Below, piece by piece: positions 2,605 to 63,250 of a DNA stretch of 64,000 bases (positions are counted from its first letter, which is position 1; every line of letters starts with the position of its first letter). This DNA comes from Amycolatopsis sp. EV170708-02-1 (lineage in GTDB: Bacteria; Actinomycetota; Actinomycetes; Mycobacteriales; Pseudonocardiaceae): the NCBI RefSeq assembly GCF_022479115.1, contig NZ_CP092497.1, positions 7,068,001-7,132,000 of the forward strand, given 5' to 3'. Below the pieces are notes generated by a model that had not been told where the DNA came from, ran no database searches, and saw only the letters and a list, made by a program, of their open reading frames with translations. Position numbers and translations under genes: made by a program.

Positions 2605-3756
2605 ATGACCTTGATCGACCTTCCCACCGTCGACGGCGGACTGGTGGAGTGGACGCCGCGAGGGGCGGCGACGCCCGCGAAACCGGCCTCGCCGCCGACC
2701 TCCCGGATCGCCTACGCGGCCGCGCACGTGGTCGCCGACCCGCTCGCCGCCGCGGACCCCGAAGAGGGCGCCGTGCTGGACTGGGACACCACACTCGCCT
2801 TCCGTGAGCACCTGTGGTCCTGCGGCCTCGGCGTCGCCGAAGCCATGGACACCGCGCAGCGCGGGATGGGCCTGGACTGGGCCACCACCAAGGACCTGAT
2901 CCGCCGCACCGGGGCGCTCGCCGCCGGGCGGCCGTGGGTGGCGGGCGTCGGCACCGATCAGCTCCCCGCCGGCGCGGCCACCGCCGAGTCCATTGTGGAC
3001 GCTTGGCGCGAACAGCTGGAGCTGGTCGGCGAGGCGGGCGCGATCCCGGTCGTGATGGCCAGCCGCGCGCTCGCCGCGTCGGCCTCCGGGCCCGAGGATT
3101 ACCATGCCGCGTACGGAAAACTGCTCTCGGTCGCGGACCGTCCGGTCCTGCTGCACTGGCTGGGCGAGCAGTTCGACCCGGCGCTGGCCGGCTACTGGGG
3201 CCACGGTGACGTCCGCAAGGCGGCCGAGGAACTGGGCAGGCTCTGCGCCGAGCACGCGGGCGTGATCGCCGGGGTCAAGGTTTCCGTGCTCGACGCGTCG
3301 ATCGAGACCGAATTCCGCCGGGCACTGCCCGAAGGCGTCAGGTGCTACACCGGCGACGACTTCAACTATCCGGAGCTCATCGCCGGGGACGACCAGGGCC
3401 ACAGCGAAGCCCTGCTGGGCATTTTCGACGCCGTCGCGCAGGTCGCCGGTGCCGCGCTCGCCCGGCTCGACGAAGGCGACAAGGCCGGTTTCCACGGCTT
3501 GCTCGACCCGACGGTCGCGCTGAGCCGGGCCATCTTCCGGGCACCGACCAGGAACTACAAAACCGGCGTCGTCTTCCTCGCCTACCTCAACGGGCATCAG
3601 GACCATTTCCGCATGGTCGCCGGCCGCGAGTCGGCCAGGTCCATCACACATCTGGCCGAACTGCTGCGCCTGGCCGACGCCGCGGGCGCGCTCGCCGACC
3701 CGGATCTCGCCGTCGCGCGGATGCGGCCGCTGCTGGCCGCGGCGGGGGTGGCCTGA
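2605..3756 (+). CDS. DUF993 family protein (dihydrodipicolinate-synthase-like aldolase fold)
   Basis: A 383-residue DUF993 protein, a family related to the TIM-barrel dihydrodipicolinate synthase/KDPG aldolase group and usually found in sugar-catabolic clusters. Visible features are the conserved stretches GVAEAMDTAQRGMGLDW, VLLHWLGEQFDPALAGYWG and KVSVLD, the last placing a lysine where class I aldolases form a Schiff base. The ATG at 2605 follows GGAGA; an upstream in-frame start at 2560 would run through the operator and is rejected. Its stop overlaps the next start (TGATG). The substrate is not known; an aldolase or lyase role on a keto-sugar is an inference. Confidence 0.85.
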   Translation: MTLIDLPTVDGGLVEWTPRGAATPAKPASPPTSRIAYAAAHVVADPLAAADPEEGAVLDWDTTLAFREHLWSCGLGVAEAMDTAQRGMGLDWATTKDLIRRTGALAAGRPWVAGVGTDQLPAGAATAESIVDAWREQLELVGEAGAIPVVMASRALAASASGPEDYHAAYGKLLSVADRPVLLHWLGEQFDPALAGYWGHGDVRKAAEELGRLCAEHAGVIAGVKVSVLDASIETEFRRALPEGVRCYTGDDFNYPELIAGDDQGHSEALLGIFDAVAQVAGAALARLDEGDKAGFHGLLDPTVALSRAIFRAPTRNYKTGVVFLAYLNGHQDHFRMVAGRESARSITHLAELLRLADAAGALADPDLAVARMRPLLAAAGVA

Positions 3757-4562
3757 TGGACCGGTTGAGCCTGAACCAGATCACCACAAAGGCGTGGTCG
3801 CTGCCGGAGGCCGTCGCGGGCTGCGCCGAGGCGGGCGTCCGCTGGATCGGCCTGTGGCGGGACAAGGTCGCCGAGACCGGCGTCGAGGAGACCGCGCGGC
3901 TGCTCAAGGAGTACGACGTCGGTGTGTCGTCGTTGTGCCGTGGCGGTTTCTTCACCGGGGTCACCCCGGAAGGATCCCCTGTGGACGGTGTCGCGCAGAC
4001 CAGGGAGGCGATCGACGAAGCCGCTGCGCTCGGTGCGGACGTCCTCGTACTGGTCGTCGGCGGGGTGAACGGCGACCTCGCCTCGTCGCGGCAGCGCGTC
4101 GCGGACGCGGTCGGCGAGCTGGCGCCGTACGCCGGTGAGCGCGGGGTCCGGCTCGGCCTGGAACCGTTGCACCCCATGCAGTGCGCCGAACGCTCGGTCC
4201 TGTCCACTGTGGACCAGGCGCTGGCGATCGCGCGGGAGCATCCGGCGGACCAGGTCGGCGTGATCGTCGACGAGTTCCACGTGTGGTGGGACCCGCGGAT
4301 CGAGGAGTCGATCGCCGCGGCGGCGGGCCGCATCGCCGGATTCCACGTCTGCGACCAGAAAGTGCCCCTGACCGACACCTTGCTGGGCCGCGCGCTGCCC
4401 GGCGACGGCCCGATCGACCACCGGCACCTGAAGGCGTGCGTCGAGGCCGCCGGCTACACCGGCCCGATCGAGGTCGAGGTGTTCGACGCCGACCTCTGGC
4501 GCGCCCCCGGCGGCGAGGTGCTCGCGGAAACCATCCAGGCCTACCGCGACCACGTTTCCTGA
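3756..4562 (+). CDS. Sugar phosphate isomerase/epimerase family TIM-barrel protein
   Basis: A 268-residue AP-endonuclease-2-like TIM barrel, the fold of xylose isomerase-like and inosose dehydratase-like enzymes. Metal-ligand type residues are visible as the Glu in GLEPLHPM, the Asp/Glu-His pair in VIVDEFHVWWDP, the His in GFHVCDQ and the Glu in IEVEVFDADLW. The ATG overlaps the DUF993 stop by one base, so the two are translationally coupled and should act in the same sugar pathway under the LacI regulator. Isomerisation or epimerisation of a keto-sugar is the likely reaction; the exact substrate is open. Confidence 0.88.
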   Translation: MDRLSLNQITTKAWSLPEAVAGCAEAGVRWIGLWRDKVAETGVEETARLLKEYDVGVSSLCRGGFFTGVTPEGSPVDGVAQTREAIDEAAALGADVLVLVVGGVNGDLASSRQRVADAVGELAPYAGERGVRLGLEPLHPMQCAERSVLSTVDQALAIAREHPADQVGVIVDEFHVWWDPRIEESIAAAAGRIAGFHVCDQKVPLTDTLLGRALPGDGPIDHRHLKACVEAAGYTGPIEVEVFDADLWRAPGGEVLAETIQAYRDHVS

Positions 4563-4631
4563 CGAAAGTAAGGGTCGCCCGCTGCCCTAGGTCCGCTGTC
4601 CGGGCGGCCGTGGTTCCCTACCGTTCGCGGC

Positions 4632-6104
4632 ATGAAACCACGGCTGCTCTGGTGGCTGGGCACAGCGTTGCTGTTGCTCGCCGTCCACACCGACTGGAAC
4701 GTGCCGCTCGCGGCCTGGGTGTTCCCGGTCTTCCTCCTCCGCTACGCCCGCCTGGTACCCACGCGCCGCGCGATCCTGTTCGTGGGCCTGTCCCTGCTGA
4801 TCGGGCAGCTGTTCTGGCTCGGTGTCACGAGTCTGCTCTTCGTGCTGTCCGCTCTGCTCGCCTTCACCTTGCTCGCGGTTCTGCAGACGACGGCCTTCCT
4901 GGCCGATCGCCTGTTCGCCGACCGCGCCGGTCCGGTGAGGACACTGGTGTTCCCGGTGACGCTCGTCGCCGGTGAATACCTCTTCACGGTGATCACCGGG
5001 TTCGGCGACTTCGGCGCGCTCGGCAGCACCCAGTCCACGAACCTGCCGCTGCTCCAGACGGCGTCCGTGACCGGCGTGTACGGCCTCACGTTCGTCCTGG
5101 CGTGGTTCGCCTCGGTGGCGAACACCGTTTGGGCGGAAGGGTGGCGGCCGGTCAAGCGCACGGTCGTCGTCCACCTTTGCCTGCTCGGCGTGGTGTTCGC
5201 GGCGGGAGGCGCGCGGTTGCTGTTCGACGCCCCCACGACGAAGACGGTGCGGGTCGCGGGGATCAGCCCGTCGGCCGAGGCGGACCGGTCGAGCTCCGAG
5301 GCGCTGGAGCGGATCGGCGTGAAGTATTGGCGTGCCGGGGAAGTCGCCTCCGCCGACCCGGTCGCGGTCGGCGCGGCGTTCGCGCCGGTCACCGACGATC
5401 TCGTGACGAGGACCCGGCAGCAGGCGTCCGCTGGGGCGAAGATCGTGCTCTGGCCGGAAACACACGCGAGTGTGCTGGAACGCGACCAGGCGGCACTGCT
5501 CGCCCGCGTCGGCACCGAAGCGAAGCAGGCGGGGATCCACGTCGGTCTCGCGTACGCGCTCTACACCGCACAGGCTCCGTACATCCGCAACGTGGCCGTG
5601 CTCGTCGGGCCGTCCGGCGAGGTGCTGTGGACCTACGACAAGACGCATCCGACCCCGATGGAGCCGATGACACCCGGCCCGGGCGTCGTCCCGACCGCGG
5701 ATTCGCCGTACGGCCGGATCGCGTCGGTCATCTGCTACGACGCGGATTTCCCCGGCCTGATGCGCCAAGCCGCGGACAAGGGGACCTCGCTGATGCTCGT
5801 GCCTGCCAACGACTGGCCGGGATTCGGCTCGTTGCACGCGGAAAAGGCCGTCTTCCGCGCGGTGGAGAACGGATACTCGCTCTTCCGGCACTCCACCCAC
5901 GGGAATTCCACAGCTGTGGACGGTCAAGGCCGGGTGCTCGGGCACGCCGGCTACTACCGCACCGATCAGCAGACGCTCGTCGCCGATCTGCCGGTGCAGC
6001 CGAGAACACAGACCGTGTACGGCCGTGTCGGTGACGTGTTCGCCTGGCTGTGCCTCGCCGCGGCCGCGCTCTGTCCTTTATGGACATACCGAAGGAAACG
6101 TTAG
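4632..6104 (+). CDS. Apolipoprotein N-acyltransferase-like membrane nitrilase (carbon-nitrogen hydrolase)
   Basis: A 490-residue protein with several N-terminal membrane segments (about 5-195), an outward-facing nitrilase domain and a short C-terminal membrane anchor, the architecture of Lnt. The Glu-Lys-Cys triad is visible: Glu276 (WPETHAS), Lys337 (YDKTHPTPMEP) and Cys368 (VICYDADFP). Lnt transfers a third acyl chain to the N-terminal cysteine of lipoproteins. Divergence from enterobacterial Lnt is large, so another amide-forming or amide-cleaving role is possible. It ends 76 bases before the response regulator and appears to be a single-gene unit. Confidence 0.8.
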   Translation: MKPRLLWWLGTALLLLAVHTDWNVPLAAWVFPVFLLRYARLVPTRRAILFVGLSLLIGQLFWLGVTSLLFVLSALLAFTLLAVLQTTAFLADRLFADRAGPVRTLVFPVTLVAGEYLFTVITGFGDFGALGSTQSTNLPLLQTASVTGVYGLTFVLAWFASVANTVWAEGWRPVKRTVVVHLCLLGVVFAAGGARLLFDAPTTKTVRVAGISPSAEADRSSSEALERIGVKYWRAGEVASADPVAVGAAFAPVTDDLVTRTRQQASAGAKIVLWPETHASVLERDQAALLARVGTEAKQAGIHVGLAYALYTAQAPYIRNVAVLVGPSGEVLWTYDKTHPTPMEPMTPGPGVVPTADSPYGRIASVICYDADFPGLMRQAADKGTSLMLVPANDWPGFGSLHAEKAVFRAVENGYSLFRHSTHGNSTAVDGQGRVLGHAGYYRTDQQTLVADLPVQPRTQTVYGRVGDVFAWLCLAAAALCPLWTYRRKR

Positions 6105-6180
6105 CGCCCCGTTACGTCAGGCGTGGTGTTCCTAACGTCTCAGCCGAAAAGAACAGTGTTCAACGGTTAAGCTGCCCCGC

Positions 6181-10973: not shown

Positions 10974-11594
10974 ATGACCACCGAGCCGGCGCCGAGATGG
11001 CGGAGACTGGAACCGGACGAACGCAAGGAGCAGATCTTCGCCTGCGCGGCCCGCCTTTTCGCCGACCGCCCGTACTCGGAAGTGTCCACTTCGGACATCG
11101 CGGCGGAGGCCGGGGTCGCCAGGGGGCTGATCAACCATTACTTCGGCACCAAACGCGAGCTCTATCTGGAGATCATCCGGCGGGCGCTGACCGTGCCGCG
11201 GCTCGCCGTCGAAATCCTGCCGGAGGGGCCGCTCGAACTGCGTGCCGACGTCGCCATCGACTGGTTCCTCGACATGGTCACCAGCCAGGAGAAGATGTGG
11301 CTGGCCGCGATCGCGCCGGAGGGTATCGGCCGCGACCTCGAGGTCGAGCGGATCCTGGAAGAAGCCGATCGCGAATCGGCGGACCGGGTGCTCGAAGCCG
11401 TCGGCCTCTCCCGCGAAAGCGAGCACGGGCCGGAGCTGAACGCGCTGGTCCGCGCGTTCGGCGGGATGGTCAAGGCGGCGGGCCGCGAATGGCTCGTGCG
11501 CGGTTCGCTCGATCGCGCGCAGGTGCACACCTTGCTCAGCAAATCGCTGGTCACCCTGGTCGGCGACGTCTTCCCCGAGATTCAGCGAGGCTGA
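10974..11594 (+). CDS. TetR/AcrR family transcriptional regulator
   Basis: A 206-residue TetR protein with the N-terminal helix-turn-helix at about residues 14-60 (RKEQIFACAARLFADRPYSEVSTSDIAAEAGVARGLINHYFGTKRELY) and an all-helical ligand domain. It is a single-gene unit, with a kinase terminator upstream and a terminator hairpin after it, so it probably regulates itself or a distant locus. A TGACAC inverted repeat at 10896-10918 is a candidate operator. No neighbouring target gene is obvious. Confidence 0.92.
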   Translation: MTTEPAPRWRRLEPDERKEQIFACAARLFADRPYSEVSTSDIAAEAGVARGLINHYFGTKRELYLEIIRRALTVPRLAVEILPEGPLELRADVAIDWFLDMVTSQEKMWLAAIAPEGIGRDLEVERILEEADRESADRVLEAVGLSRESEHGPELNALVRAFGGMVKAAGREWLVRGSLDRAQVHTLLSKSLVTLVGDVFPEIQRG

Positions 11595-11601
11595 ACGGGG
11601 A

Positions 11602-12493: not shown

Positions 12494-13363
12494 ATGCCCC
12501 GCGCGCGTGTGAACGGTCTCGAACTCGAGTACGACACCTTCGGCTCCCCCGCGGATCCGCCACTGGTCCTGGTGATGGGACTCGGCGCCCAGATGGTGAC
12601 GTGGGAGGCCGGCTTCTGCGAACTGCTCGCCGAGGGCGGGTTCCACGTCGTCCGCTTCGACAACCGCGACATCGGTCTCTCGTCCTATCTGGACGATCTG
12701 CCCGCGCCCGATCTGGCCGCGCTCGCCGCGGGCGACCTCGCCTCCGCACCGTATCTGCTGTCCGATCTCGCCGCCGACATCACCGGGCTGTTCGACGCGC
12801 TCGGATTCGAGCGCGCACACGTCGTCGGCGCGTCGATGGGCGGGATGATCGTGCAGCAGCTCGCGATCGACTCGCCCGAGCGGCTGCTCAGCCTCACGTC
12901 GATCATGTCGACCACCGGGGATCCCTCGGTCGGGCATCCGGAGCCCGCCGCGCTCGCCGGACTGACGCGGCCGCCCGCCGCCACCCGGGAGCAGGCGATC
13001 GAAGACGGGATCGCGTGGTTCAGGCTCGTGGGTTCGCCCGGTCACCCGTCCGACGAAGAGTTCCTGCGTATGAAGGCCACTCGCAATTACGACCGCGCGA
13101 ATCACCCCGAGGGCGCGCTGCGGCAGGCCGCCGCCGTCGTCGCTTCGGGTGACCGCACGGCGAAGCTGCGCGACGTCCACGTCCCCACGCTCGTCATCCA
13201 CGGCGAAAGCGATCCGCTGATCAACGTCAGCGGCGGGAAAGCGACCGCGGAAGCGATCCCGGACGCGGAACTGCTGCTGTTCCCCGGAATGGGGCACGAA
13301 CTGCCGCGGCAGTTGTGGCCCGCGATCGCCGACGCGATCATCGCGCACGCCCGAAAAGCCTGA
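12494..13363 (+). CDS. Alpha/beta hydrolase
   Basis: A 289-residue serine hydrolase of the family that includes the anthracycline methyl esterases RdmC/DnrP. Visible are the strand-loop LVLVMGLGAQMVTWE, the nucleophile elbow GASMGG, the acid in HGESDPLI and the His in GMGHELP. The ATG at 12494 starts a protein of typical family length; upstream in-frame codons overlap the TetR promoter. Divergent from the TetR gene, so repression by it is likely. The ester or amide substrate is not predictable from this. Confidence 0.88.
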   Translation: MPRARVNGLELEYDTFGSPADPPLVLVMGLGAQMVTWEAGFCELLAEGGFHVVRFDNRDIGLSSYLDDLPAPDLAALAAGDLASAPYLLSDLAADITGLFDALGFERAHVVGASMGGMIVQQLAIDSPERLLSLTSIMSTTGDPSVGHPEPAALAGLTRPPAATREQAIEDGIAWFRLVGSPGHPSDEEFLRMKATRNYDRANHPEGALRQAAAVVASGDRTAKLRDVHVPTLVIHGESDPLINVSGGKATAEAIPDAELLLFPGMGHELPRQLWPAIADAIIAHARKA

Positions 13364-21808: not shown

Positions 21809-23307
21809 CCTTCAATCTGGCGACCCATTTCGTGGACCGCCTCCCCGGCGAGCGGACGGCGTTGCTGTGCGGCGACGAGGAAGTCACGTACGCGGAGCTC
21901 GCGGCGCTGGTGAACCGGGCCGGGAACGTGCTGCGCGAGCTCGGTGTCCGAAGTGGACAGCGGGTCCTGCTGGCGCTGAACGACGGCGTCGAGTTCGTGG
22001 CCGTGTGGTACGCGGCGCAGAAGATCGGCGCGGTCACCGCCGAGGTCTATTCCTTCCTGCAGCCCAAGGATTACGCGTACTACCTCGGCTACACCGAGGC
22101 CGCGGTCGTCATCGCGGACGCCTCGACGTTGCCGGCGCTGCGCGAAGCCGGCGCGCGGAACCTGCTGGTCGTCGGCGATGTGGAGTTGCTCCCCGGCGAG
22201 CATTCGTTCTCCACGCTGATCGCCTCGGCATCGGCCGAGCTGGAGGCCGCGCCGACCACGCTGGACGACGTCGCGATCTGGAAGTTCACCACCGGCAGCA
22301 CCGGTGCGCCCAAGGCGTGCGTGCACCCGGCGCGCAGTGCGCTGGAAAGCTTCGACCGGTACGCGCTCGGCGTGCTGGGACTCCGCGAGGACGACCGCGT
22401 GCTCGCCGTGCCGAAGCTGTTCTTCGGCTACGCACGGGATCTGACCGCGCTGTTCCCGTTCGGCGTGGGGGCCTCCGGGATCGTGTTCCCCCAGCGCAGC
22501 ACCGCCGACCTCCTGTTCTCGCTGATCGAGCGCTACCGGCCGACGATCCTGGTCAACGTGCCGACCATGATGAGCGCGATGATCGCCCATCCAGCCGCGT
22601 CTACTGTGGACATGAGTTCGCTTCGGCTCGCGACGTCGGCGGGCGAGGCGTTGCCGTCGGAGCTGCATCGCAAGTGGGACAACCTGTTCGGGGTTCCGGT
22701 GATCGACGGGATCGGCTCGTCGGAGGCGTACCACATCTATCTGTCCAATGTGCCCGGAGCGCAGCGGGTCGGCAGCCTCGGCCGCGAGGTCCCCGGCTAC
22801 ATCGCTCGCGTGCTGGACGAAAGCGGCGATCCCTTGCCGGACGGGGAGATCGGCACCCTGGAGGTGACCGGGCCGACCATCGCCCGCGAGTACCACGGCG
22901 ACACGGAGAAGACCGCGCGGACGTTCCACGGCGACACCCTGCGCACCGGCGATCTGTTCAGCCGCGACGCCGACGGGTACTTCCACCACCACGGCCGCGC
23001 CGACGACCTGCTGAAGGTGTCCGGTGTCTTCGTCGCGCCGAGCGAGATCGAAGACTGTCTCATCGGTCATCCCGCCGTCGTCGACTGCGCAGTGCTGGGC
23101 GTGACCGTCGACGGCCTGGTCGTCCCGCGGGCGTGCGTCGTCCTGGCCGAGGGCGCTTCCGTCACGCCCGAGGAACTCAAGGATCACGCGCGGGCCCAGC
23201 TGGCGAAGCACAAATACCCGCGCGAGGTGGTGTTCGTGACCGAACTCCCCCGCACCGCCAACGGAAAACTCGATCGGCGCGCGTTGCGCCGGGTGGAGGC
23301 AGAGTGA
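21805..23307 (+). CDS. Benzoate-CoA ligase family protein (probable anthranilate/aryl-CoA ligase)
   Basis: A 500-residue acyl-adenylate-forming ligase of the benzoate/2-aminobenzoate-CoA ligase group. AMP-binding motifs are complete: the P-loop TTGSTGAPK (about 162-170), the GSSEAYH motif, LRTGDLFSRDADGYF and the C-terminal catalytic lysine in PRTANGKLDR. It forms an aryl-CoA thioester from the acid, ATP and CoA. Kynureninase in the facing operon makes anthranilate, so 2-aminobenzoate is the favoured substrate; benzoate or a hydroxybenzoate are alternatives. ATG overlaps the creatininase stop (ATGA) and its stop overlaps the SDR start (GTGA). Confidence 0.88.
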   Translation: MTFNLATHFVDRLPGERTALLCGDEEVTYAELAALVNRAGNVLRELGVRSGQRVLLALNDGVEFVAVWYAAQKIGAVTAEVYSFLQPKDYAYYLGYTEAAVVIADASTLPALREAGARNLLVVGDVELLPGEHSFSTLIASASAELEAAPTTLDDVAIWKFTTGSTGAPKACVHPARSALESFDRYALGVLGLREDDRVLAVPKLFFGYARDLTALFPFGVGASGIVFPQRSTADLLFSLIERYRPTILVNVPTMMSAMIAHPAASTVDMSSLRLATSAGEALPSELHRKWDNLFGVPVIDGIGSSEAYHIYLSNVPGAQRVGSLGREVPGYIARVLDESGDPLPDGEIGTLEVTGPTIAREYHGDTEKTARTFHGDTLRTGDLFSRDADGYFHHHGRADDLLKVSGVFVAPSEIEDCLIGHPAVVDCAVLGVTVDGLVVPRACVVLAEGASVTPEELKDHARAQLAKHKYPREVVFVTELPRTANGKLDRRALRRVEAE

Positions 23308-34243: not shown

Positions 34244-35950
34244 GTGAGTGTGCAGGCGATCGCAGGTCAAGAGGAAGATGGCGACTTCGCGATCGCTCTT
34301 TCCGGGCAGCCGCCGCTGCGGGGCCTGAAGCTCCCGGAGTTCGTCGGCGAAGTGCGGCGTTTGGAGGCGGAGCACTCACCCCGTTGGGTGTTCCCGTCGG
34401 TCGAAGGGACGTATCCGGCGCTGATCAAGGCGGGCGTCCGGGTGCGGCGCTGCCACGATCTGACGCTGATCGAGGGCTTGCTCCTCGCCCACGAAGGCCG
34501 CCCACAGGAGTCGCGAAGCCTGCGCGCGGCGTTGGCCAGGGCGAACGGCCAGGAGGCACCCGCCGACGAGCCGCCGCTCTGGGCCGAGGACGACCAGCCG
34601 ACGCTGTTCGAGACGCGCGGCCCTCGGCTGCCCGCCGGCGTCACGGTGATCGACGCGGCGCGCCGGGTGCTGGCCGAGCAGGAGAAACGAGTCGCGCCGA
34701 CCGATCATCCGGAACGGCTGCGGCTGCTCTTCGCGGCGGAGTCGGCGAGCGCGCTGGCGGCGGCCGAGATGTCGGCCGACGGTTTGCCCTGGCGGGCGGA
34801 CCTGCACTCGGCGTTGCTCGCCGAACAGCTCGGTCCCCGTGTCCCGGCAGGGCAGCGGCCGAAACGCCTGGTCGAGCTGGCGGCGAAGATCAGCGACGCG
34901 TTCGGCGGGCGCCCGGTCAATCCGGACGCCCCGGCCAGCGTCGTGCGGGCGCTCGGGCGGGAGGGCATCGAGGTCTCGTCGGCCAGGAAGTACCTGCTGC
35001 GCGACATCGACCATCCCGCCGTCCCGCCGCTGCTGGAGTACAAGGAGCTCGCGCGGCTGCATTCGGCCAACGGCTGGACCTGGCTCGACGAGTGGGTGCG
35101 CGACGGCCGGTTCCGCCCGCATTACGTCGTCGGCGGGGTCGTCTCGGGCCGGTGGGCGAGCCGGGGCGGGGGCGCGCTGCAGATCCCGAAGGTCCTGCGG
35201 ACCTGCGTCCGGGCCGATCCGGGCTGGAAGCTGGTCGTCGCCGACGCCGCGCAGCTGGAGCCGCGAGTGCTGACTGCGTTGTCCGGAGACCGCAAGCTGG
35301 CCGACGTCGCCGCGGCCACGGATCTGTACGCGAGCCTCGCCGAGGCGATGTTCTCCGGCGTGCGCCGCGTGCCGGTGCCCGCGTGGGACGACAGGGACGA
35401 TCGGGACCGCGCGAAGATCGCGATGCTGTCGGCGATGTACGGCGGCACGTCCGGCGAGGCCGGGCCGCTGCTGGCGTTGCTGCGCACCAGGTTCCCGGAC
35501 GCGGTGTCCTATGTGGAGCGTGCCGCGCAGGCCGGGGAACGCGGCGAGCGCGTCCGCTCCCGGCTGGGCCGGACGTCGCCCGCGCCGTCGGAGGCGTGGC
35601 GCGCGCTGACCGGCGGGGTCGCGGCGGACGAGGCCGGCGAGCTGAAGGCGCGGCAGGCGTCCCGCAACTGGGGCCGGTTCACCCGCAACTTCGTCGTGCA
35701 GGCGAGTGCGGCGGATATGACCGCGGTCCTGCTGGCGACCCTGCGGAGCAGGCTCCCCTCCCCCGCGCACCTGGTGTTCTTCCAGCACGACGAGGTCCTG
35801 GTGCACACCCCGGCCGAGTTCGCCGACGAGGTCTCGCAGTCCATTGTGGACAGCATGTCCGAAGCGGCGCGGCTGCTGTTCGGGGCCGCTTGCCCGGTCC
35901 GGTTCCCGTTGCACATCGCCGCCGTGGACACCTACGCCGACGCGAAATGA
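34244..35950 (+). CDS. Bifunctional 3'-5' exonuclease/DNA polymerase-type protein (family A)
   Basis: A 568-residue stand-alone family A polymerase-like protein found in actinomycetes. The C-terminal half has motif A (VVADAAQLEPRVLTALSGD), motif B-like helix (DRAKIAMLSAMYGGTSGEAGPLL) and motif C (FFQHDEVLVHTP). The N-terminal part aligns with the exonuclease position but shows no DxE motif, so proofreading is probably absent. It lacks the 5'-nuclease domain of Pol I and may act in repair or damage tolerance. GTG start after GGGGGAA; codon four is a second possible GTG. It converges on hrpA across a repeat array. Confidence 0.87.
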   Translation: MSVQAIAGQEEDGDFAIALSGQPPLRGLKLPEFVGEVRRLEAEHSPRWVFPSVEGTYPALIKAGVRVRRCHDLTLIEGLLLAHEGRPQESRSLRAALARANGQEAPADEPPLWAEDDQPTLFETRGPRLPAGVTVIDAARRVLAEQEKRVAPTDHPERLRLLFAAESASALAAAEMSADGLPWRADLHSALLAEQLGPRVPAGQRPKRLVELAAKISDAFGGRPVNPDAPASVVRALGREGIEVSSARKYLLRDIDHPAVPPLLEYKELARLHSANGWTWLDEWVRDGRFRPHYVVGGVVSGRWASRGGGALQIPKVLRTCVRADPGWKLVVADAAQLEPRVLTALSGDRKLADVAAATDLYASLAEAMFSGVRRVPVPAWDDRDDRDRAKIAMLSAMYGGTSGEAGPLLALLRTRFPDAVSYVERAAQAGERGERVRSRLGRTSPAPSEAWRALTGGVAADEAGELKARQASRNWGRFTRNFVVQASAADMTAVLLATLRSRLPSPAHLVFFQHDEVLVHTPAEFADEVSQSIVDSMSEAARLLFGAACPVRFPLHIAAVDTYADAK

Positions 35951-36213: not shown

Positions 36214-39200
36214 TCAGGTGGCGGCGTCGTCCAGGGCCTTGATGACTCGCTTGAGGGAGACGGGGTGGGCGGTACCGAGGGTCTGGGCGAAGAAGCTCAC
36301 TCGCAGCTCCTCGATCATCCACCGGATCTCCCGCAGCGCGGGGACGAAGTCCCCGGCGGAAGCGCGTCCAGTGCGGCCTGGTACTCGTTGCGGAGCCAGG
36401 CGATGTCGCCGGTGCGCTGGATGTCCCGGGTCGGCTCGGTCGGGAGCTTCTCCAGCCGCCGTTCGATGCCCCGCAGGTACCGGACGACGTGCTTCAGCCG
36501 GTCCTGCCCGGTCTCGGTGACGAAACCCTTGTGCACCAGCCCGTCCAGCTGCGCGCGGATGTCGGCGAGCGAATCCTTCGGGCCGCGCGTGTCGGCCAGC
36601 CGGGTTTCGACGTCGTTGGCCGCGCGCAGGATCTTCTCGACGTTGGTCAGCACGTCGAGCACCCCCGCGTTCAGGCCCGCGCGCACCTTTTCCAGCAGGA
36701 CGGCGAAACCGGCCTCGTCCCAGCGCGGTCCGCCGTTGTCGGCCACGAGCTTGTCGACCGCGCAATCCACACAGTCTTCGAGCAGCGCCGCCACCGAGCC
36801 GTGCGGATTCCGGTTCAGCACGAGTTTCGACGAGTTGCCGAGGCTGCGGGTGATGAACTTCATCGGCGACGGGATGTTCAGCCGCAGCATCCGCCGCGTG
36901 CCCGCCCACATCGACTGCTCCTGCTGGCCCGGCGTGTCCAGCAGCCGCACCGCCACGGAACCGCCTTCGTCGACCAGCGCCGGATACGCCTTGACGTCGT
37001 GCCCGCGCTGCTTGCTGGCGAACACCTTCGGCAGTTCGCCGAACGCGGGCGTCGTCAGGCCCTCGCGCTCGATGCTGTCGGCGGCCTTGGAGATCGTCGC
37101 GCGCACCTGGCCGCTCAGGTCCCGTTTGAGCGCCTCGATGTCCTTGCCTTCGGACACCTTCTTGCCGCGGACGTCGACGACGCGGAAGGTCATCTTCAGA
37201 TGTTCGGGGACCGCCGGCAGCTGCCAGGCGTCGTCGGGGATCACCACCCCGCGCAACGCTTCCAGCTCGTCGGCGACGGCGTGCAGCAGCGGCCCGTCGG
37301 CCGGGCCGACCCGCGACAACACCAGCTTCGCGTGGTCGGGCGCCGGCACGAAGTTCCGCCGAAGAGCCTTCGGCAGCGACTTGATCAGCTGCGTCACCAG
37401 TTCTTCGCGCAGGCCGGGGACCTGCCAGTCGAAGCCGTCCGGGGTCACCTGGTTCAGCACGGGCAGCGGGATGTGCACGGTGACACCGTCCGCGTCGGCG
37501 CCCGGCTCGAACTGGTACGTGAGCTTGAAGGTCTGCGTGCCCTGCGTCCAGAAGTCGGGGTAGTCGGCCTCGCGCACGCCGCCCGCGGTCTCGTTGATGA
37601 GCATCGTCTTCTCGAAGCTCAGCAGGTCGGGCTGGGTGTGCCGCGCCTTCTTCCACCAGCTGTCGAAATGCCGCGCGGAGACGACATCGGCCGGGACACG
37701 CTGGTCGTAGAACTCGAACAGCGTCTCGTCGTCGACCAGGATGTCGCGACGGCGGGCCCGGTTCTCCAGGTCTTCGACCTCGTCGAGCAGCGCGCGGTTC
37801 TCGCGGAAGAAGTGGTGCCTGGTCTCCCAGTCGCCCTCGACCAGCGCGTGCCGGATGAACAGCTCGCGACTGACCTCCGGATCGATGCGGCCGTAGTTGA
37901 CGCGGCGGTCGGCGACGAGCGGGACGCCGTACAGCGTCACCTTCTCCTTCGCCATCACCGCGCCCTGCTTGCGTTCCCAGTGTGGCTCGGAATAGTTCCG
38001 CTTCACCACGTGCCCGGCGAGCGGCTCGACCCATTCCGGCTCGATCCGCGCGTTGACCCGCCCCCACAGGCGCGAGGTCTCGACGAGTTCGGCCGACATG
38101 ACGAATCGCGGCTGCTTCTTGAACAACGCCGAACCCGGGAACACCGAGAACCGTGCCCCGCGCGCGCCGAGATAGTCGCCCTTGGCCGGATCCTTGAGGC
38201 CCACGTGCGACAACAGCCCGGCGATCAGCGACGTGTGCACCCGTTGCGGATCGGCCGGGCCGTCCGTGTTGAGGGTGATGCCGAGCGGTTTGGCCAGCTG
38301 GCGCAGCTGGCTGAAGATGTCCTGCCATTCGCGGATGCGCAGGTAGTTCAGGTATTCGTTGCGGCACATCCGGCGGAACTGGTTGCTGGACAACGCCTTC
38401 TGCTGCTCGGTGACGTACTCCCACAGGTTCAGGTACGCCAGGAAGTCCGACGTCTTGTCCGCGAACCGCGCGTGCTGCTCGTCCGCCGCCTGCTGCTTCT
38501 CCGCCGGCCGCTCGCGCGGGTCCTGAATGGACAGTGCGGCGGCGATGATCATCACTTCGCGGACGCAGCCGTTGCGGGAGGCCTCCAGCACCATCCGCGC
38601 CATCCGCGGGTCGACCGGGAGCTGCGCGAGTTTGCGGCCGGTCTCGGTGAGCTTCTTGCCGTCCGACATCTCGAACGCGCCGAGTTCCTGCAGCAGCTGG
38701 ACACCGTCGGTGACCTGACGGCGATCCGGCGGCTCGACGAAGGGGAACGCCGCGATGTCGCCGAGGCCGAGCGAGGTCATCTGCAGGATGACCGACGCGA
38801 GGTTGGTCCGCAGGATCTCCGGATCGGTGAACTCGGGGCGGGCGTCGAAGTCGTCCTCGGAGTACAGCCGGATGCAGATACCGTCCGACGTCCGGCCGCA
38901 GCGGCCCTTGCGCTGGTTCGCTGACGCCTGCGAGACCGGCTCGATCGGCAGCCGCTGCACCTTGGTGCGGTGGCTGTACCGCGAGATCCGCGCGGTGCCG
39001 GGGTCGACGACGTACTTGATGCCGGGCACGGTCAGCGACGTCTCGGCGACGTTGGTGGCGAGCACCACGCGGCGCCCGGTGTGGCGCTGGAACACCCGAT
39101 GCTGGTCCGACGACGAGAGCCGGGCGTACAGCGGCAGGATTTCGGTGTTCCTCAGGTCCTGTTTGGACAGTGCGTCGGCGGCGTCGCGGATCTCCCGCTC

Positions 39201-41339: not shown

Positions 41340-42551
41340 TCACGTCGCCCTGGCCGGCTCGTCGCGGCGGGTCGAAGTCCCCCGGACAATACTCGCCGGT
41401 AGCAACCAGGTGAGTTTCTCGGAACGGATGACCGCGACTGGACCGATCACGGCCAGCAGGAGAACGTAGCCCGCGACGAACGGCGCGACCCGCGAGTCGA
41501 GCCCGGCCGCGGTCGCCATCGCCGCGAGCACCAGCGAGAACTCGCCCCTGGTGAGCACGGTCAGCCCGATGTTCACCCCGGCCTGGCGATCGAAGCCGTT
41601 CACCCGCGCGGCCAGCGCGCCCGCGCCCAGGTTCAGCACGATCGTCAGCGCCACCGCGATCAGCACCGGCACGACCACCGAACCGACCGCGTTCGGGTCG
41701 ATGCTGAGCCCGAAGATGAAGAAGAACAGCGCGCCGAACGCGTCCCGCAGCGGAAGCACCAGCTTGTGGATACGCGGCGCGACCTTCGAGCCGCCGAGCA
41801 TCATGCCGACCATGAACGCGCCGATGGCGTCGGACACCCCGACCTCCTCGGCGACGGCGGCACCCATGACCGCGACACCGACGAAGCAGACGGTCAGCAG
41901 TTCGTCGTCCGCCGAGCCGAACAGCTTCGACACGACCCGGCCACCCCAGCGGGCGAGCGCGGCCATGACGATCAGGAACGCGAAGGCCTTGCCGAAGTCG
42001 GCGAGCGCCGAGCCGAAGCTCCCGGCGCCGGACAGCACCGGCTGCAGCAACGCCAGGTACAGCGCGAGGAAGATGTCCTCGATCACGATGATGCCCATGA
42101 TCAGCCGGGATTCGGGGTTGTCCATCCGGCGGGATTCGAGCAGGAGTTTGGTGACGATCGCCGACGACGAGATCCCGATGGCACCGGCGATGACCAGCGC
42201 TTCCCTGGTCCCCCAGCCCAGCAGGAAGCCGAAGGCGAGCCCGCCGCCGATGTTCAGGATCAGGTAGATCAGGCCGGACCAGACGAGTTTGCGCCCGCCC
42301 TTGGCCAGATCGTCGAGGGAGAACTCGAGACCGAGGTAGAACAGGAGGAAGACGAGGCCGAGCCCGGCGAGCACACCGAGTTCGGCCGGATCGTCCACAA
42401 GGGACAGTCCGGGGGTGTTGGGGCCGAAGACGAAACCGGCCAGCATGAACAGGGGGATGGTGGGCAGCCCGATCCGGGCGCCGGCTCTGGCGATGACACC
42501 GGCGGCGAGGAACGCCCCGCCGACGGCCAGCAAAGCATGACCGGAACTCAT
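41340..42551 (-). CDS. Cation:proton antiporter (CPA2 family, KefB-like membrane domain)
   Basis: A 403-residue integral membrane protein of about twelve helices, with conserved AGFVFGP at the N-terminal half, the two-helix cross region GISSSAIVTKLLLE and the ion-path FLALYLALLQPVL and DAIGAFMVGMMLGG, plus LTRGEFSLVLA. It lacks a C-terminal TrkA-N regulatory domain, so it may need a separate subunit. It exchanges K+ or Na+ for protons. The ATG overlaps or nearly abuts the small membrane-protein gene upstream, suggesting joint transcription. Confidence 0.92.
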   Translation of the reverse strand: MSSGHALLAVGGAFLAAGVIARAGARIGLPTIPLFMLAGFVFGPNTPGLSLVDDPAELGVLAGLGLVFLLFYLGLEFSLDDLAKGGRKLVWSGLIYLILNIGGGLAFGFLLGWGTREALVIAGAIGISSSAIVTKLLLESRRMDNPESRLIMGIIVIEDIFLALYLALLQPVLSGAGSFGSALADFGKAFAFLIVMAALARWGGRVVSKLFGSADDELLTVCFVGVAVMGAAVAEEVGVSDAIGAFMVGMMLGGSKVAPRIHKLVLPLRDAFGALFFFIFGLSIDPNAVGSVVVPVLIAVALTIVLNLGAGALAARVNGFDRQAGVNIGLTVLTRGEFSLVLAAMATAAGLDSRVAPFVAGYVLLLAVIGPVAVIRSEKLTWLLPASIVRGTSTRRDEPARAT

Positions 42552-42904: not shown

Positions 42905-42996
42905 CTGCCCACCACTTTACCAGTCCTTTATAGAGTCACGGCTCGCGCCGCCGAAGTGGCATCCGGATCACACTGTCCTCTTCGGACGGACGGTGA

Positions 42997-51445: not shown

Positions 51446-53164
51446 ATGAGGAACCCTGAGGAACTCCGGAGCCATCGCTGGTTCGGCGGCGACGAACTGC
51501 GCGGCTTCAGCCATCGGGCCAGGAGCAGGCAACTCGGCTACAACCCGGAGGAACACCTCGGGAAACCCGTCATCGCGATCCTCAACACCTGGAGCGACAT
51601 CAACCCCTGCCACATGCATCTGCGCGAGCGGGCCCAACAGGTCAAACGCGGGGTGTGGCAGGCGGGCGGATTCCCGCTGGAGTTCCCGGTCGCCACTCTG
51701 TCGGAGACGTTCCAGAAGCCGACGCCGATGCTCTACCGCAACCTGCTTTCCCTGGAGACCGAAGAGATCCTGCGGTCCTATCCGATCGACGGCACGGTGC
51801 TCATGGGCGGCTGCGACAAGACGACACCGGCGTTGCTGATGGGCGCGGCGAGCGCGGGGCTGCCCGCCATCTTCGTCCCCGCGGGGCCGATGCTGCGCGG
51901 GCATTGGCGGAACGAGGTGCTCGGCAGCGGCACCGACATGTGGAAGTACTGGGACGACAAGCGGGCCGGGCTGATCGGCGACGAGGAACTGTCCGAATTG
52001 GAGCGTGGGCTGGCCCGCTCCCCCGGAACCTGTATGACGATGGGCACCGCGTCCACGATGATGTCGGTCGCCGAAGTGCTTGGGCTGACCTTGCCCGGCG
52101 CCGCGTCGATCCCCGCCGTCGACTCGGCGCACCACCGGATGGCCTCGGCGAGCGGCGCCCGTGCCGTCGAGATGGTGTGGGAAGACCTCACGATCACGAA
52201 GATCCTCGACGAGCGCGCGTACGCCGACGCGATCACCACCGTGCTGGCGCTGGGCGGCTCCACCAACGCCGTCATCCACCTGATCGCGATGGCCGGGCGC
52301 GGACGGATCCCGTTGTCCGTCGGCGATTTCGACGCGATCGCCCGCCGGGTTCCCGTACTGGCGAACATCAGGCCGGGCGGCGACTGGCTGATGGAGGACT
52401 TCTACTACGCCGGCGGGCTCCCCGGCCTGCTCTCCCGGCTGACCGACCTGCTGCATACCGATCGCGTCACGGTCACCGGCCGGACCCTCGGTGAGAACCT
52501 GGCTTCGGCGCGGGTGCACGACGACGACGTCATCCGCACGCGTGACGACCCGGTCGCCGCGGAAGGCGGAGTCGCGGTGCTGCGCGGCAATCTCGCGCCG
52601 TCCGGCGCGGTGATCAAGCACCTCGCCGCCGAGCCCCGGCTCCTCGTCCACACTGGACCCGCGGTGGTCTTCGACGACTACCGGGACTTGAAGAAGCGCA
52701 TCAACGACCCCGCGCTCGGCATCACCGAGGACTCCGTGCTGGTACTGCGGGGATCCGGCCCGCTCGGCGGCCCCGGCATGCCCGAATACGGGATGCTGCC
52801 GCTGCCGGATCACCTGCTGGCCAAGGGGGTCCGCGACATGGTCCGCGTTTCCGACGCCCGGATGAGCGGCACCAGCTACGGGGCCTGCGTGCTGCACGTC
52901 GCGCCGGAGTCCCATGTGGGCGGTCCGCTGGCGCTGGTCCGCGATGGCGACCCGATCACCTTGGACGTCCCTTCGCGACGGCTGAGCCTCGACGTCGATG
53001 ATGCGGAATTGCAACGCCGCCGGGCGGCCTGGAACCCGCCCGCGCCGCGGTACGAACGTGGTTACGGCGCGTTGTACTCCGAACACATCACGCAAGCCGA
53101 TGAAGGCTGTGACTTCGATTTTCTCGCGCGGGTGGGCGAAAACCCGGAACCTGACGCCCAGTGA
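51446..53164 (+). CDS. IlvD/Edd family dehydratase (sugar-acid dehydratase-like)
   Basis: A 572-residue iron-sulfur dehydratase. Cluster-binding and active-site features include NTWSDINPCHMHLRERAQQVKRGV, GGCDKTTPALLMGA and SPGTCMTMGTASTMMSVAEVLG (three cysteines), and the C-terminal DARMSGTSYGACVLHVAPES. It removes water from a 2,3-dihydroxy acid. Similarity of RSHRWFGGDELRGFSHR and neighbouring FCD-type GntR point to L-arabonate, xylonate or galactonate rather than the branched-chain amino acid substrate. The ATG has no ribosome site, so initiation may be leaderless or weak. Confidence 0.9.
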   Translation: MRNPEELRSHRWFGGDELRGFSHRARSRQLGYNPEEHLGKPVIAILNTWSDINPCHMHLRERAQQVKRGVWQAGGFPLEFPVATLSETFQKPTPMLYRNLLSLETEEILRSYPIDGTVLMGGCDKTTPALLMGAASAGLPAIFVPAGPMLRGHWRNEVLGSGTDMWKYWDDKRAGLIGDEELSELERGLARSPGTCMTMGTASTMMSVAEVLGLTLPGAASIPAVDSAHHRMASASGARAVEMVWEDLTITKILDERAYADAITTVLALGGSTNAVIHLIAMAGRGRIPLSVGDFDAIARRVPVLANIRPGGDWLMEDFYYAGGLPGLLSRLTDLLHTDRVTVTGRTLGENLASARVHDDDVIRTRDDPVAAEGGVAVLRGNLAPSGAVIKHLAAEPRLLVHTGPAVVFDDYRDLKKRINDPALGITEDSVLVLRGSGPLGGPGMPEYGMLPLPDHLLAKGVRDMVRVSDARMSGTSYGACVLHVAPESHVGGPLALVRDGDPITLDVPSRRLSLDVDDAELQRRRAAWNPPAPRYERGYGALYSEHITQADEGCDFDFLARVGENPEPDAQ

Positions 53165-55117: not shown

Positions 55118-55126
55118 CCCGGGGGC

Positions 55127-57846: not shown

Positions 57847-57850
57847 CCCC

Positions 57851-57914: not shown

Positions 57915-57915
57915 C

Positions 57916-59268: not shown

Positions 59269-59344
59269 TGAGCCTCCTCCGTCCGTCCCTTCAACCTAAA
59301 GGGACGGACGGCGTGACACCAGAGGTCGCTACTACGGTGTGCAC

Positions 59345-60229
59345 ATGGGGAATTTCGTACTGCTCGACGCACCGTCCAATCTCGGACTGCGCCCGCCGGC
59401 CGAAGGGGCGGTCCCCGGCTGCCACAAGGCACCGGGCGCGCTGCGTGACCACGGCCTGCTCACCCGTTTGGGGGCAACCGACGGCGGCGTCGTCACCCCG
59501 CCGCGGTACCTGCCCGACTGGTCACCCGGGAGCGGCGTGCGGAACGCGGCCGGGATCGCGGCCTACACCGCGGCCCTCGCCGGACGCCTCGCGAAGATCC
59601 GCGCGGACGGCGGCTTCCCGGTGGTGCTCGGCGGCGACTGCTCGATCGCGCTCGCCGCGATGCTGACGCTGCGTCGCGAAGGCCGCTACGGCATCGTCTA
59701 CTTCGACGGGCACGACGACTTCCGCCATCTCGGCAATTCCGAGCACGTCGCCAACGTGGGCGGCGAGGCCCTCGCCGTCGTCACCGGCCGGGGCCAACCG
59801 GAACTGGCCGATGTGGACGGTCTGAATCCCTATGTCCGCGACGAAGACGTCCTCGTGCTCGGCGTTCGCGCGGAGGAATCCGCCGAGGCGCGGGAAGCCG
59901 GGCTTCGGATCGTGACCAGCCAGGAGATCATGGCGTCCGGCACCGACGGCGCGCTCGCCGCCGCCCGGGAGATTTTCGCGCCACTGGACGGTTTCTGGAT
60001 CCACATCGACATCGACACGCTCGATCCGGAGTTCGTGTCCGCTGTGGACAGTCCCGATCCCGGCGGGCTCAGCCCGGACAAGCTCGTCGAACTGCTCCGC
60101 GGCCTGCTCGCGATCCCCGGTGCCGCCGGGCTGGAGCTGACCATCTTCGATCCCGACCTCGACCCCGACGGCACGCAGGCCGCCCTCGTGACGGACTGCC
60201 TCGTGCGCGCACTGGAAGGAACCCGATGA
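59345..60229 (+). CDS. Arginase/ureohydrolase family protein with a Cys-for-His metal ligand
   Basis: A 294-residue ureohydrolase-fold protein. Metal motifs are GGDCS (Cys99 where arginases have His), DGHDD (121-125) and DIDTLDPEF. Substrates of related enzymes are arginine, agmatine, guanidinobutyrate or formiminoglutamate; the altered ligand makes assignment unsafe, and other members of the subfamily also have Cys. ATG at 59345; a GTG two codons earlier exists. TACGGT six bases before the ATG could be a leaderless -10 box. Its stop overlaps the hydrolase start (ATGA). Confidence 0.87.
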   Translation: MGNFVLLDAPSNLGLRPPAEGAVPGCHKAPGALRDHGLLTRLGATDGGVVTPPRYLPDWSPGSGVRNAAGIAAYTAALAGRLAKIRADGGFPVVLGGDCSIALAAMLTLRREGRYGIVYFDGHDDFRHLGNSEHVANVGGEALAVVTGRGQPELADVDGLNPYVRDEDVLVLGVRAEESAEAREAGLRIVTSQEIMASGTDGALAAAREIFAPLDGFWIHIDIDTLDPEFVSAVDSPDPGGLSPDKLVELLRGLLAIPGAAGLELTIFDPDLDPDGTQAALVTDCLVRALEGTR

Positions 60230-60915: not shown

Positions 60916-60964
60916 GGTGGCCGGACACCGGAATATGTCGGTGCCTCCCGGTAGTTTCCCCACC

Positions 60965-61759: not shown

Positions 61760-61762
61760 GTT

Positions 61763-61810
61763 CCTCGTGAGTGGCTAGGACGGCTCTAACCGTCCTAGCC
61801 ACTCACGAGG
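61763..61810. terminator. CGTGAGTGG-family hairpin, third copy
   Basis: CCTCGTGAGTGGCTAGGACG and its complement fold with one G-T-type mismatch near the tip. Relative to the copy at 24825-24880, TAAGG/CCTTA has become CTAGG/CCTAG, so two base pairs changed on both sides together. It lies between convergent PIG-L and RidA genes. Confidence 0.9.
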
Positions 61811-61828
61811 CGCAAGGCGGCAGCGGGG

Positions 61829-62227
61829 TCAGGCCGTGGCGGCGGTGACGTCGAGTTCGACGAGCTGCCCGGGGTAGCCGAGCTGCGCGACGCCGAGCAG
61901 GGTGCTCGCGGTGGTGAAGGCCTCCCCGATCGCCGACTCGACGAACCGGTCCCACACCGCCGAAAGCACGTCCGCGTCCGGCGTCACCACGTAGATCACC
62001 GTGCGCACCACGTCCGCCGGGGTCGCCTTGGCGAAGGCGAGCGCGGCGGCGGTGTTCGCGACCACCTGGTCGACCTGGGCGAGCACATCGCCTTCGACGA
62101 CCTTGCCGTCTTCGGTGAGCGGGCACTGGCCGGCGAGGTGGACGTCCCTCCGGCCTTCGACGATGGTCACGTGGTGGTAGGTCGGTGTGGGGTGCAGACC
62201 GGGCGGATGGTGGCGTTCAATGGTCAC
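61829..62227 (-). CDS. RidA family protein
   Basis: A 132-residue YjgF/YER057c/UK114-type protein. The RidA fold signature is seen in HHVTIVEGRRDVHLAGQCP, the trimer-interface DVLAQVDQVVANTAAALAFAKATPADVVRTVIYVV and the C-terminal LGVAQLGYPGQLVELDVTA. The catalytic Arg of true RidA (in the GRxP-like region) is not evident, so it may bind rather than deaminate imines. GTG at 62227 follows GAGGA by eight bases and gives the standard TIERxxPPGLHP start. Divergent from mtnA. Confidence 0.85.
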   Translation of the reverse strand: MTIERHHPPGLHPTPTYHHVTIVEGRRDVHLAGQCPLTEDGKVVEGDVLAQVDQVVANTAAALAFAKATPADVVRTVIYVVTPDADVLSAVWDRFVESAIGEAFTTASTLLGVAQLGYPGQLVELDVTAATA

Positions 62228-62284
62228 GAACCGCATCCTCACCGAGGCGGTCGCGACGGGACAACCGGATTTCACGGGGGAGCC

Positions 62285-63250
62285 ATGCGCAGGACGATCG
62301 ACTGGACCGGGGACGCGGTCACGATCATCGACCAGACCCTCCTTCCCGCCGAGTATCGCGTGCTCGAACTGCGCACGGTCGGCGAACTCGTCGCCGCCAT
62401 CCAGCGGCTCGCGGTGCGCGGGGCACCGGCGCTCGGCGCGGCGGGGGCGCTCGGCGTCGTGCTCGCCACCCGCGCGCAAGGCGACGTCGAGGCCGAGGCG
62501 CGCCGCGTCGCCCAGGCCCGGCCGACCGCGGTCAACCTGAGCTGGGGCGTCTCCCGCGCCCTCGCGAAGCTGCCGGAGGGGCCGGAAGCCGTCCTCGCCG
62601 AAGCCCTCGCGATCCTCGACGAGGACGAACGGATCAACCACGAAGCCTCCCGGCTGGCGGCGGACGTGGTGATCGAACACTGCGGGCGGCGGCCGTTGCG
62701 GCTGCTGAGCCACTGCAACGCCGGTCACCTCGCGACAGTCGCCTGGGGCAGCGCGCTCGGCGTCGTCTGGCATCTGCAGGCCCGCGGCCTGGTCGAGTCC
62801 GTGCTCGTCGACGAGACCCGGCCCCTGCTGCAGGGCGCCCGCCTGACCGCCTGGGAACTGGCCGAAGCCGGTGTCCCGTACCGGATCCAGCCCGACGGAG
62901 CGGCCGCCGCGGCGATGAGCCGCGGCCTGGTCGACTGCGTGCTCGTCGGCGCCGACCGGATCGCCGCCAACGGCGACGTCGCCAACAAGATCGGCACCTA
63001 CGGCCTGGCGATCGCGGCGAAGCACCACGGAATTCCCTTCGTGGTCGTCGCCCCTTCGTCCACTGTGGACACCGCGATGTCGGACGGCGCCGGGATCGTG
63101 ATCGAGGAACGCGATCCCGGCGAGGTCCTGGCCTTCGGCGGTACGAAGGTCGCGCCCGAAGGCGCGGAGGTGTTCAACCCGGCCTTCGACGTGACGCCGC
63201 ACGAGCTGATCACCGCGGTGGTGACCGAACAAGGAATCCTGAAGGCCTAG
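62285..63250 (+). CDS. mtnA: S-methyl-5-thioribose-1-phosphate isomerase
   Basis: A 321-residue eIF2B-like isomerase of the methionine salvage pathway, which converts methylthioribose-1-phosphate to methylthioribulose-1-phosphate. The catalytic Cys144 lies in LLSHCNAGHLATV and Asp224 in VLVGADRIAANGDVANKIGTYGLA; substrate-binding segments RGAPALGAAGALGV, VDETRPLLQGARLTAWEL and the C-terminal FNPAFDVTPHELITAVVTEQGI are complete. The ATG follows GGGGGAG. No other salvage genes lie in the window. Its stop overlaps the convergent Eis-like gene by four bases. Confidence 0.93.
   Translation: MRRTIDWTGDAVTIIDQTLLPAEYRVLELRTVGELVAAIQRLAVRGAPALGAAGALGVVLATRAQGDVEAEARRVAQARPTAVNLSWGVSRALAKLPEGPEAVLAEALAILDEDERINHEASRLAADVVIEHCGRRPLRLLSHCNAGHLATVAWGSALGVVWHLQARGLVESVLVDETRPLLQGARLTAWELAEAGVPYRIQPDGAAAAAMSRGLVDCVLVGADRIAANGDVANKIGTYGLAIAAKHHGIPFVVVAPSSTVDTAMSDGAGIVIEERDPGEVLAFGGTKVAPEGAEVFNPAFDVTPHELITAVVTEQGILKA

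Follow-up and report, generated by a model that had tools for sequence, protein, structure and literature searches.

Background

Why does a near-palindromic 13-mer, GTCCAYTGTGGAC, recur inside unrelated genes, mostly in one reading phase, in a stretch of an Amycolatopsis chromosome? The stretch, referred to here as the window, comprises 64,000 bases, positions 7,068,001-7,132,000 of the 9,660,387-base contig NZ_CP092497.1 of Amycolatopsis sp. EV170708-02-1 (genome handle G000). An initial annotation, made from the letters alone, had proposed that the nucleotide word rather than the encoded peptide is kept, and had likened the word to a highly iterated palindrome or to a nucleoid-protein or methyltransferase site.

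Here, we confirm that observation and find it to be larger than first reported. The 13-mer represents the peak of the wider motif GTCC-NNWNN-GGAC (A/T centre, 5 bp between the arms; consensus ACTGTCCACWGTGGACAGT), with 1,643 copies genome-wide as against 37 of the reversed pattern, and this motif shapes proteins, writing rare codons and amino acids into unrelated ones. We see about an even chance that a 13-19 bp site of a sequence-specific dimeric DNA-binding protein, present at roughly 1,600 places chromosome-wide, has this word at its core.

A dispersed palindrome and its architecture

The window holds four exact copies of GTCCAYTGTGGAC and 15 copies of the wider motif. With up to 2 mismatches allowed, the 13-mer has 23 strand-matches at 15 places, whereas 100 dinucleotide shuffles of the window, counted in the same way, yield a mean of 3.4 and a maximum of 9. 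Genome-wide (9.66 Mb), the exact word is found 220 times (112 on one strand, 108 on the other), and the reversed word, used as a control, has 0 copies in the same genome. Codon-preserving expectations were obtained from a genome sample made up of the window and 120 further stretches, each of 20 kb (2.464 Mb in all, about a quarter of the genome); the stretches were evenly spaced, save one that overlapped the window and was swapped for the last 20 kb. Genes were called by a simple codon-based procedure and cover 85% of this sample, in which one site is counted twice because two stretches (L011 and L130) share 7.5 kb. Of the 58 exact copies in the sample, 50 are inside called genes, compared with a mean of 0.7 and a maximum of 3 in 20 synonymous-codon shuffles within those genes, so that the excess stands against the codon-preserving null. 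The large excess over both the composition and the codon expectation, together with dispersal along the entire chromosome, supports the comparison with highly iterated palindromes.

The sites in the window are as follows.

2988..3000, + strand: exact copy, GTCCATTGTGGAC, in a DUF993 gene, encoding Ser-Ile-Val-Asp
4202..4214, + strand: exact copy, GTCCACTGTGGAC, in a xylose-isomerase-like TIM-barrel gene, encoding Ser-Thr-Val-Asp
4930..4942, + strand: wider motif, GTCCGGTGAGGAC, in a CN-hydrolase/LNT-like gene
6073..6085, + strand: wider motif, GTCCTTTATGGAC, close to the end of the same CN-hydrolase/LNT-like gene
11084..11096, + strand: wider motif, GTCCACTTCGGAC, in a TetR-family gene
12682..12694, + strand: wider motif, GTCCTATCTGGAC, in a called gene
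21946..21958, + strand: wider motif, GTCCGAAGTGGAC, in an AMP-binding enzyme gene
22599..22611, + strand: near-member with one arm mismatch, GTCTACTGTGGAC, in the same AMP-binding enzyme gene, encoding Ser-Thr-Val-Asp
35839..35851, + strand: exact copy, GTCCATTGTGGAC, in a family-A DNA polymerase gene
38520..38532, - strand: wider motif, GTCCATTCAGGAC, in a DUF3418 helicase (HrpA-like) gene
39156..39168, - strand: wider motif, GTCCAAACAGGAC, in the same DUF3418 helicase gene
42393..42405, - strand: wider motif, GTCCCTTGTGGAC, in a Na/H exchanger gene
42975..42987, no strand assigned: wider motif, GTCCTCTTCGGAC, outside called genes
52646..52658, + strand: wider motif, GTCCACACTGGAC, in an IlvD/Edd dehydratase gene
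60037..60049, + strand: wider motif, GTCCGCTGTGGAC, in an arginase-family gene, encoding Ser-Ala-Val-Asp
63058..63070, + strand: exact copy, GTCCACTGTGGAC, in an IF-2B-family gene

The four exact copies (2988, 4202, 35839 and 63058) and the two one-mismatch copies (22599 and 60037) of the initial annotation are all where it had placed them, and the looser copies at 21946, 42393 and 52646 belong to the wider motif; the one at 5907-5920 (TCCACAGCTGTGGA) has a different spacing and is not a member. The inverted repeat that had been read as GTCCAC/GTGGAC round one base is a genuine dyad, with a narrower true core, GTCC-NNWNN-GGAC.

Among gapped 4-bp palindromes in genes, with spacings from 0 to 15, GTCC-N5-GGAC is the most significant (522 observed, 148 expected from 6 shuffles), and the same arms at the other spacings are at or below expectation, save N9 (77 vs 63). 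The surplus belongs to the A/T-centred N5 sites, which number 384 against 25.7 expected, the C/G-centred ones reaching 137 against 122.5; the inner letters favour ACWGT, and many one-letter variants of GTCCAYTGTGGAC are likewise far over the codon-model expectation. A single change of an arm letter lowers the excess from 16-fold to 1.0-3.4-fold. Relative to phase-matched composition, the flanks of 375 sites show graded preferences at position -3 (A 3.6-fold, T 2.1-fold), position -2 (C 1.55-fold, T 0.81-fold) and position -1 (T 1.7-fold, G 0.4-fold), with only about 0.7-1.2-fold farther out. The DnaA box, with the consensus TTGTCCACA, was considered since the perfect palindrome GTCCACWGTGGAC has GTCCACA on one strand; it was rejected on the -2 preference for C over T and on enriched members such as GTCCACTTCGGAC that do not contain GTCCACA.

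Support for the DNA word rather than the peptide being kept

All six best copies encode Ser-(Thr/Ile/Ala)-Val-Asp, as first noted, in the form of SIVD, STVD or SAVD, and the T-ending codons that they use are indeed rare, ACT making up 2.7% of Thr, ATT 2.3% of Ile and GCT 3.2% of Ala codons. That copies lie always in the same codon phase was too strong a claim: 44 of the 50 exact genic copies do, as do 298 of the 384 wider genic sites, which start at a third codon position, and the codon shuffle alone puts about half in that phase (13.98 of 26.7 expected).

Ser-x-x-Asp recurs because the DNA word dictates it in the favoured phase, and the residues between Ser and Asp are highly variable. For STVD, 13.3 occurrences are expected and 50 observed. 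Of these, 34 come from copies of the motif, and 44 have ACT or ACA as the Thr codon, two triplets that jointly account for 5.8% of Thr codons. SIVD (18 vs 7.3 expected) and SEVD (28 vs 9.4) are also in excess; SAVD is not (30 vs 26.1, 2 of them motif-written), and neither are STVE, ATVD, TSVD, SVTD and DVTS. Selection on the peptide was rejected as the cause given the variable middle residues and the lack of excess of the order-permuted TSVD, SVTD and DVTS. The codon shuffle, the peptide counts and the aligned sites described below thus all support the view that the nucleotide word is what is kept.

Sites compared across species

The region of the DUF993 and TIM-barrel genes was sought in 40 same-genus genomes, of which 33 matched; 29 of these (at least 73% identity, G000 included) were aligned, and the 4 others, with only 51-52% identity, were left unaligned. 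The DUF993 site (2988) is kept in 25 of the 29 loci, always with T at its centre and thus the rare ATT, and the TIM-barrel site (4202) has a T centre in 18 loci, an A centre in 9, and C and G in one locus each, counts that are not independent given that the aligned species are related. At other third positions ending in A or T, agreement with the reference averages 32% in one set (41 positions, 4 of which reach at least 80%) and 35% in another (21 positions, 2 of which do so). An origin of the DUF993 and TIM-barrel sites by insertion is not supported, as genomes that do not have the word align there free of gaps. Another place in the aligned region bears the motif in 18 of the 29 loci, although not in G000.

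The HrpA-like gene was compared in 28 genomes (30 loci less L309 and L310, which are fragments from G033). Its site at 38520 occupies the same place in six genomes of 4 genera, five of them by alignment and the sixth, G076, by peptide context, its word being in another alignment column. The site at 39156 is common to three genomes of two genera, and three genomes of genus g2 share a further column with three different inner sequences; the remaining copies are private to single genomes.

Placement on the chromosome

Within the sample, 383 of the 439 wider sites are inside called genes, at a density of 18.3 per 100 kb compared with 13.1 between genes. Between genes, the N5 spacing is enriched as well, with 62 occurrences compared with 10-16 at each of N3, N4, N6, N7 and N8, although terminator-like repeats may account for some of them. 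Distance from the origin, placed by skew near 9.26 Mb, shows no trend (rho -0.02). Gene starts, as set by the simple caller, are depleted (22 sites in 213 kb within the first 120 bp vs 326 in 1,634 kb, p 0.0014), and sites are not concentrated at gene ends. Low-GC loci are site-poor, with 1.4 sites per 20 kb in the lowest-GC tenth compared with 4.6 in the highest quarter (rho 0.35).

The matS site of MatP is a 13-bp palindrome, and matS and the Noc and SlmA sites are sequence addresses of chromosome proteins with a regional distribution on the chromosome. The present word is like matS in being a palindrome of 13 bp, and is unlike all of these sites in being more numerous and in showing no origin-terminus trend, that is, no confinement to one chromosomal region as in a macrodomain.

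The symmetric, operator-like shape would also suit the operators of an ordinary transcription factor accompanied by many intragenic decoys, and the half-site GTCCAC matches the NdgR motif of S. coelicolor in PMC4340878. We consider this quite unlikely, with 1,643 sites that are mostly inside genes and denser there than between them. According to that source, regular NdgR sites (GTCCAC-N3-GTGGAC) have the arms GTCC/GGAC 7 bp apart, and the N7 spacing is not enriched here (128 observed vs 216 expected), so that an NdgR (IclR) operator was rejected.

Known DNA uptake sequences are asymmetric, whereas the present motif is an A/T-centred dyad with inverted arms at a fixed spacing. This symmetry speaks against the main rival to a protein-binding site, molecular drive, in which word-bearing DNA would be favoured in transfer or repair, as an uptake-type sequence or through biased gene conversion, with no service to the chromosome. 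The resemblance to uptake sequences is otherwise considerable, with about 1,640 dispersed and mostly intragenic copies, a preferred phase and altered peptides; the shortage of sites in low-GC loci and the richness of two gene clusters (L013 and L081) would also fit, and we rate drive as unlikely. According to PMC2346458, the uptake sequences of Pasteurellaceae and Neisseria likewise have hundreds to thousands of intragenic copies with one orientation commoner in frame, and those of Pasteurellaceae are biased to gene termini, unlike the present sites with their depletion at gene starts and lack of concentration at gene ends.

Several further features were noted in the sampled loci. At L013 and L081, sites are about four times as dense as usual, many of them in very long genes, which look like polyketide or peptide synthetase clusters, judging by size and sequence. 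Two motif copies 22 bp apart, mutual mirror images, are located between convergent genes at L020:16991-17025 and may form a terminator instead of belonging to the dispersed set. In the sampled G000 loci, the AGGACGGTTCT, TGAAGGACGCT and CCGTGAAGGCCT families of words are also over-represented and are perhaps intergenic repeats. The first 7.5 kb of the contig (L011:1-7472) recurs at its end (L130:12528-20000) in the same orientation and with 99.9% identity, as in a circular assembly left untrimmed.

Distribution among lineages

Among 298 genomes of the order surveyed, all 11 of the same genus contain 134-280 exact copies, and other genera of the same family range from 0 to 774. Tens to hundreds of exact copies are present in some genomes of families f5, f9 and f12, and 0-3 in the well-sampled families f8, f15 and f16. 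In 295 other genomes of a phylum sample, GTCCANWNTGGAC has 0-5 copies and its reversed control 0-6, compared with 375 and 1 in G000. Across a 38-genome panel, the wider motif has 349-1,749 copies in 21 genomes and 24-208 in the other 17; this split between motif-rich and motif-poor genomes is not clean, since the motif-poor members G011, G020 and G025 nonetheless carry 78, 23 and 39 exact copies, respectively.

Among the matches listed, the 17-mer used as a query is found in Amycolatopsis, Crossiella, Allokutzneria, Lentzea, Saccharothrix, Fodinicola and Virgisporangium and in scattered unrelated bacteria. Further sites lie near it in Crossiella (9 in 32 kb), Virgisporangium (5 in 24 kb) and Allokutzneria (4 in 32 kb); of four 8-kb Amycolatopsis loci with the 17-mer, one has 2 further sites and three have none. 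Extended 19-mers (up to 1 mismatch allowed) are found again in 10 of the 21 genomes tested, four of them outside family f1. Viral contigs were also considered: the 14-mer TGTCCACTGTGGAC is scattered there, single in 79 of 80 loci among the matches listed, and these occurrences look like chance. In 14 Rhodobacterales/Tabrizicola metagenome loci (L327, L341, L342, L344, L346, L353, L359, L360, L367, L384, L386, L398, L400 and L402), which have almost no dispersed variants, a TTGAAAT or TTGATTT box precedes CTGTCCACTGTGGACAG in 10, and does so at the same distance in 9 of these; there, CTGTCCACTGTGGACAG looks like a separate promoter-like or repeat element.

This patchiness also bears on the idea that mutation or repair bias alone, or codon bias, produces the word. 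Codon use does predict part of the phase preference, and other palindromes also somewhat exceed the codon shuffle. Such a bias is nonetheless very unlikely as the source: codon-preserving shuffles give 0.7 copies where 50 are observed, the centre of the TIM-barrel site is C or G in only 2 of 29 loci, and large genomes of f8, f13 and f15 hold at most 3 exact copies.

Methylases and the comparison with HIP1

As described in PMC4390886, HIP1 (GCGATCGC) and the alternate highly iterated palindromes (HIPs) are palindromes of cyanobacteria that, like the present motif, are iterated chromosome-wide and patchy between lineages. Unlike them, the present motif is a bipartite A/T-centred dyad of 13-19 bp, is actinobacterial and is matched by no methylase from the three families tested. 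A word search of PMC4390886 finds no mention of actinobacteria, Frankia or Amycolatopsis, and a search of the open-access literature returned no report of the present motif among the matches listed. Relative to the HIPs, it would appear to be new: its length, architecture and lineage differ, and none of the methylases tested matches it.

Methylation followed by methyl-directed repair, as proposed for HIP1, could create and keep a palindrome, and would be in line with the HIP1-like dispersal, over-representation and patchiness and with the presence of PF02384 (N6 methylase) in 11 of 12 motif-bearing genomes tested. Yet the C5 methylase family PF00145 has no match in 6 of 15 tested genomes with at least 39 exact copies, including the one with 774; PF01555 (N6/N4 methylase) is without a match in 5 of 12, among them all 4 same-genus genomes tested; and G022, with 574 copies of the wider motif, has no match to any of these three families, the only methylase families searched. 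The PF02384-type gene of G000 itself has matches both among motif-rich genomes (11 of 21) and among motif-poor ones (8 of 17). None of the three families tracks the motif, and none of them supplies a methyltransferase wherever the word is frequent; graded preferences over 19 bp are, moreover, unlike a methylase site. The methyltransferase site of the initial annotation is thus disfavoured, motif-rich G022 having no match to the three families, and we hold methylation to be highly improbable as the cause.

The G000 gene with an N6-methylase-like domain, L450 (G000:C1:9536803-9538440), is kept in the same-genus genomes tested and in some others. Its N-terminal segment is presumably helix-turn-helix-like, and its DPPF motif is one that we take to be N6-methylase-like. 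L450 was rejected as the matching methylase, as its presence does not follow the palindrome.

A candidate protein-binding site

A nucleoid-protein site, the remaining suggestion of the initial annotation, is the best idea left. The motif looks like the address of a chromosome-wide DNA-binding protein because it is far above chance and is kept across species at some sites despite the rare codon that it imposes. A dimer would be in keeping with the symmetric half-sites and their constant spacing, with the A/T centre and with the graded preferences over about 19 bp; each monomer would read one GTCC half-site in the major groove, with the A/T centre and the A/T-favouring -3 position possibly providing minor-groove or bendability contacts. 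The sites would be held at least partly by selection at the DNA level, and through such selection they would impose rare codons, and even residues, on unrelated proteins, for the most part in a single reading phase. We infer protein binding, the dimeric nature of the protein and a job in chromosome architecture rather than local gene control, the last from the number and even spread of the sites.

Several observations weigh against this interpretation. The full motif is present at the TIM-barrel site in only 13 of 29 loci, where the last base, the usual change, agrees with the reference in only half, and the site at 4930 is found in 2 of 29. In the HrpA-like gene, 14 of 28 genomes have no motif copy, five motif-rich ones included, and the most widely shared site there, 38520, sits in a conserved peptide; protein conservation therefore helps to retain it, and only its rare ATT speaks for the DNA. 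By these alignments, conservation and turnover both appear to occur, differing by site. The spread of sites is uneven at L013 and L081, which hold 16 and 15 compared with a mean of 3.5 across 120 loci. Several unrelated gapped palindromes also top the codon shuffle, up to about 3-fold (CTCG-N1-CGAG, 768 vs 353 expected; GATC-N15-GATC, 105 vs 33.5), and this null is accordingly imperfect. Finally, the 16 loci around the strongest 19-mers, from 10 of 21 genomes and with rough gene calls (one locus having none), share no neighbouring gene, and the candidate protein was not found among these neighbours.

With these points weighed, a dimeric DNA-binding protein continues to be the reading that we favour. 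In its fullest form, held tentatively and with somewhat less than even confidence, it would be a Pseudonocardiaceae-type, sequence-addressed nucleoid system, in which one dimeric protein has about 1,600 mostly intragenic sites, selection on these sites dictates rare codons and amino acids in unrelated proteins, and the system is gained or lost as a unit between genera.

Implications

It is unusual for bacteria to show selection on a DNA word within hundreds of unrelated genes. The purpose of highly iterated palindromes is still open in cyanobacteria, and a second such system is now found in actinobacteria. Because the motif is sharp and related lineages both have and lack it, the search for its protein is directly testable. 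The finding may also bear on codon design and on the heterologous expression of genes from such hosts.

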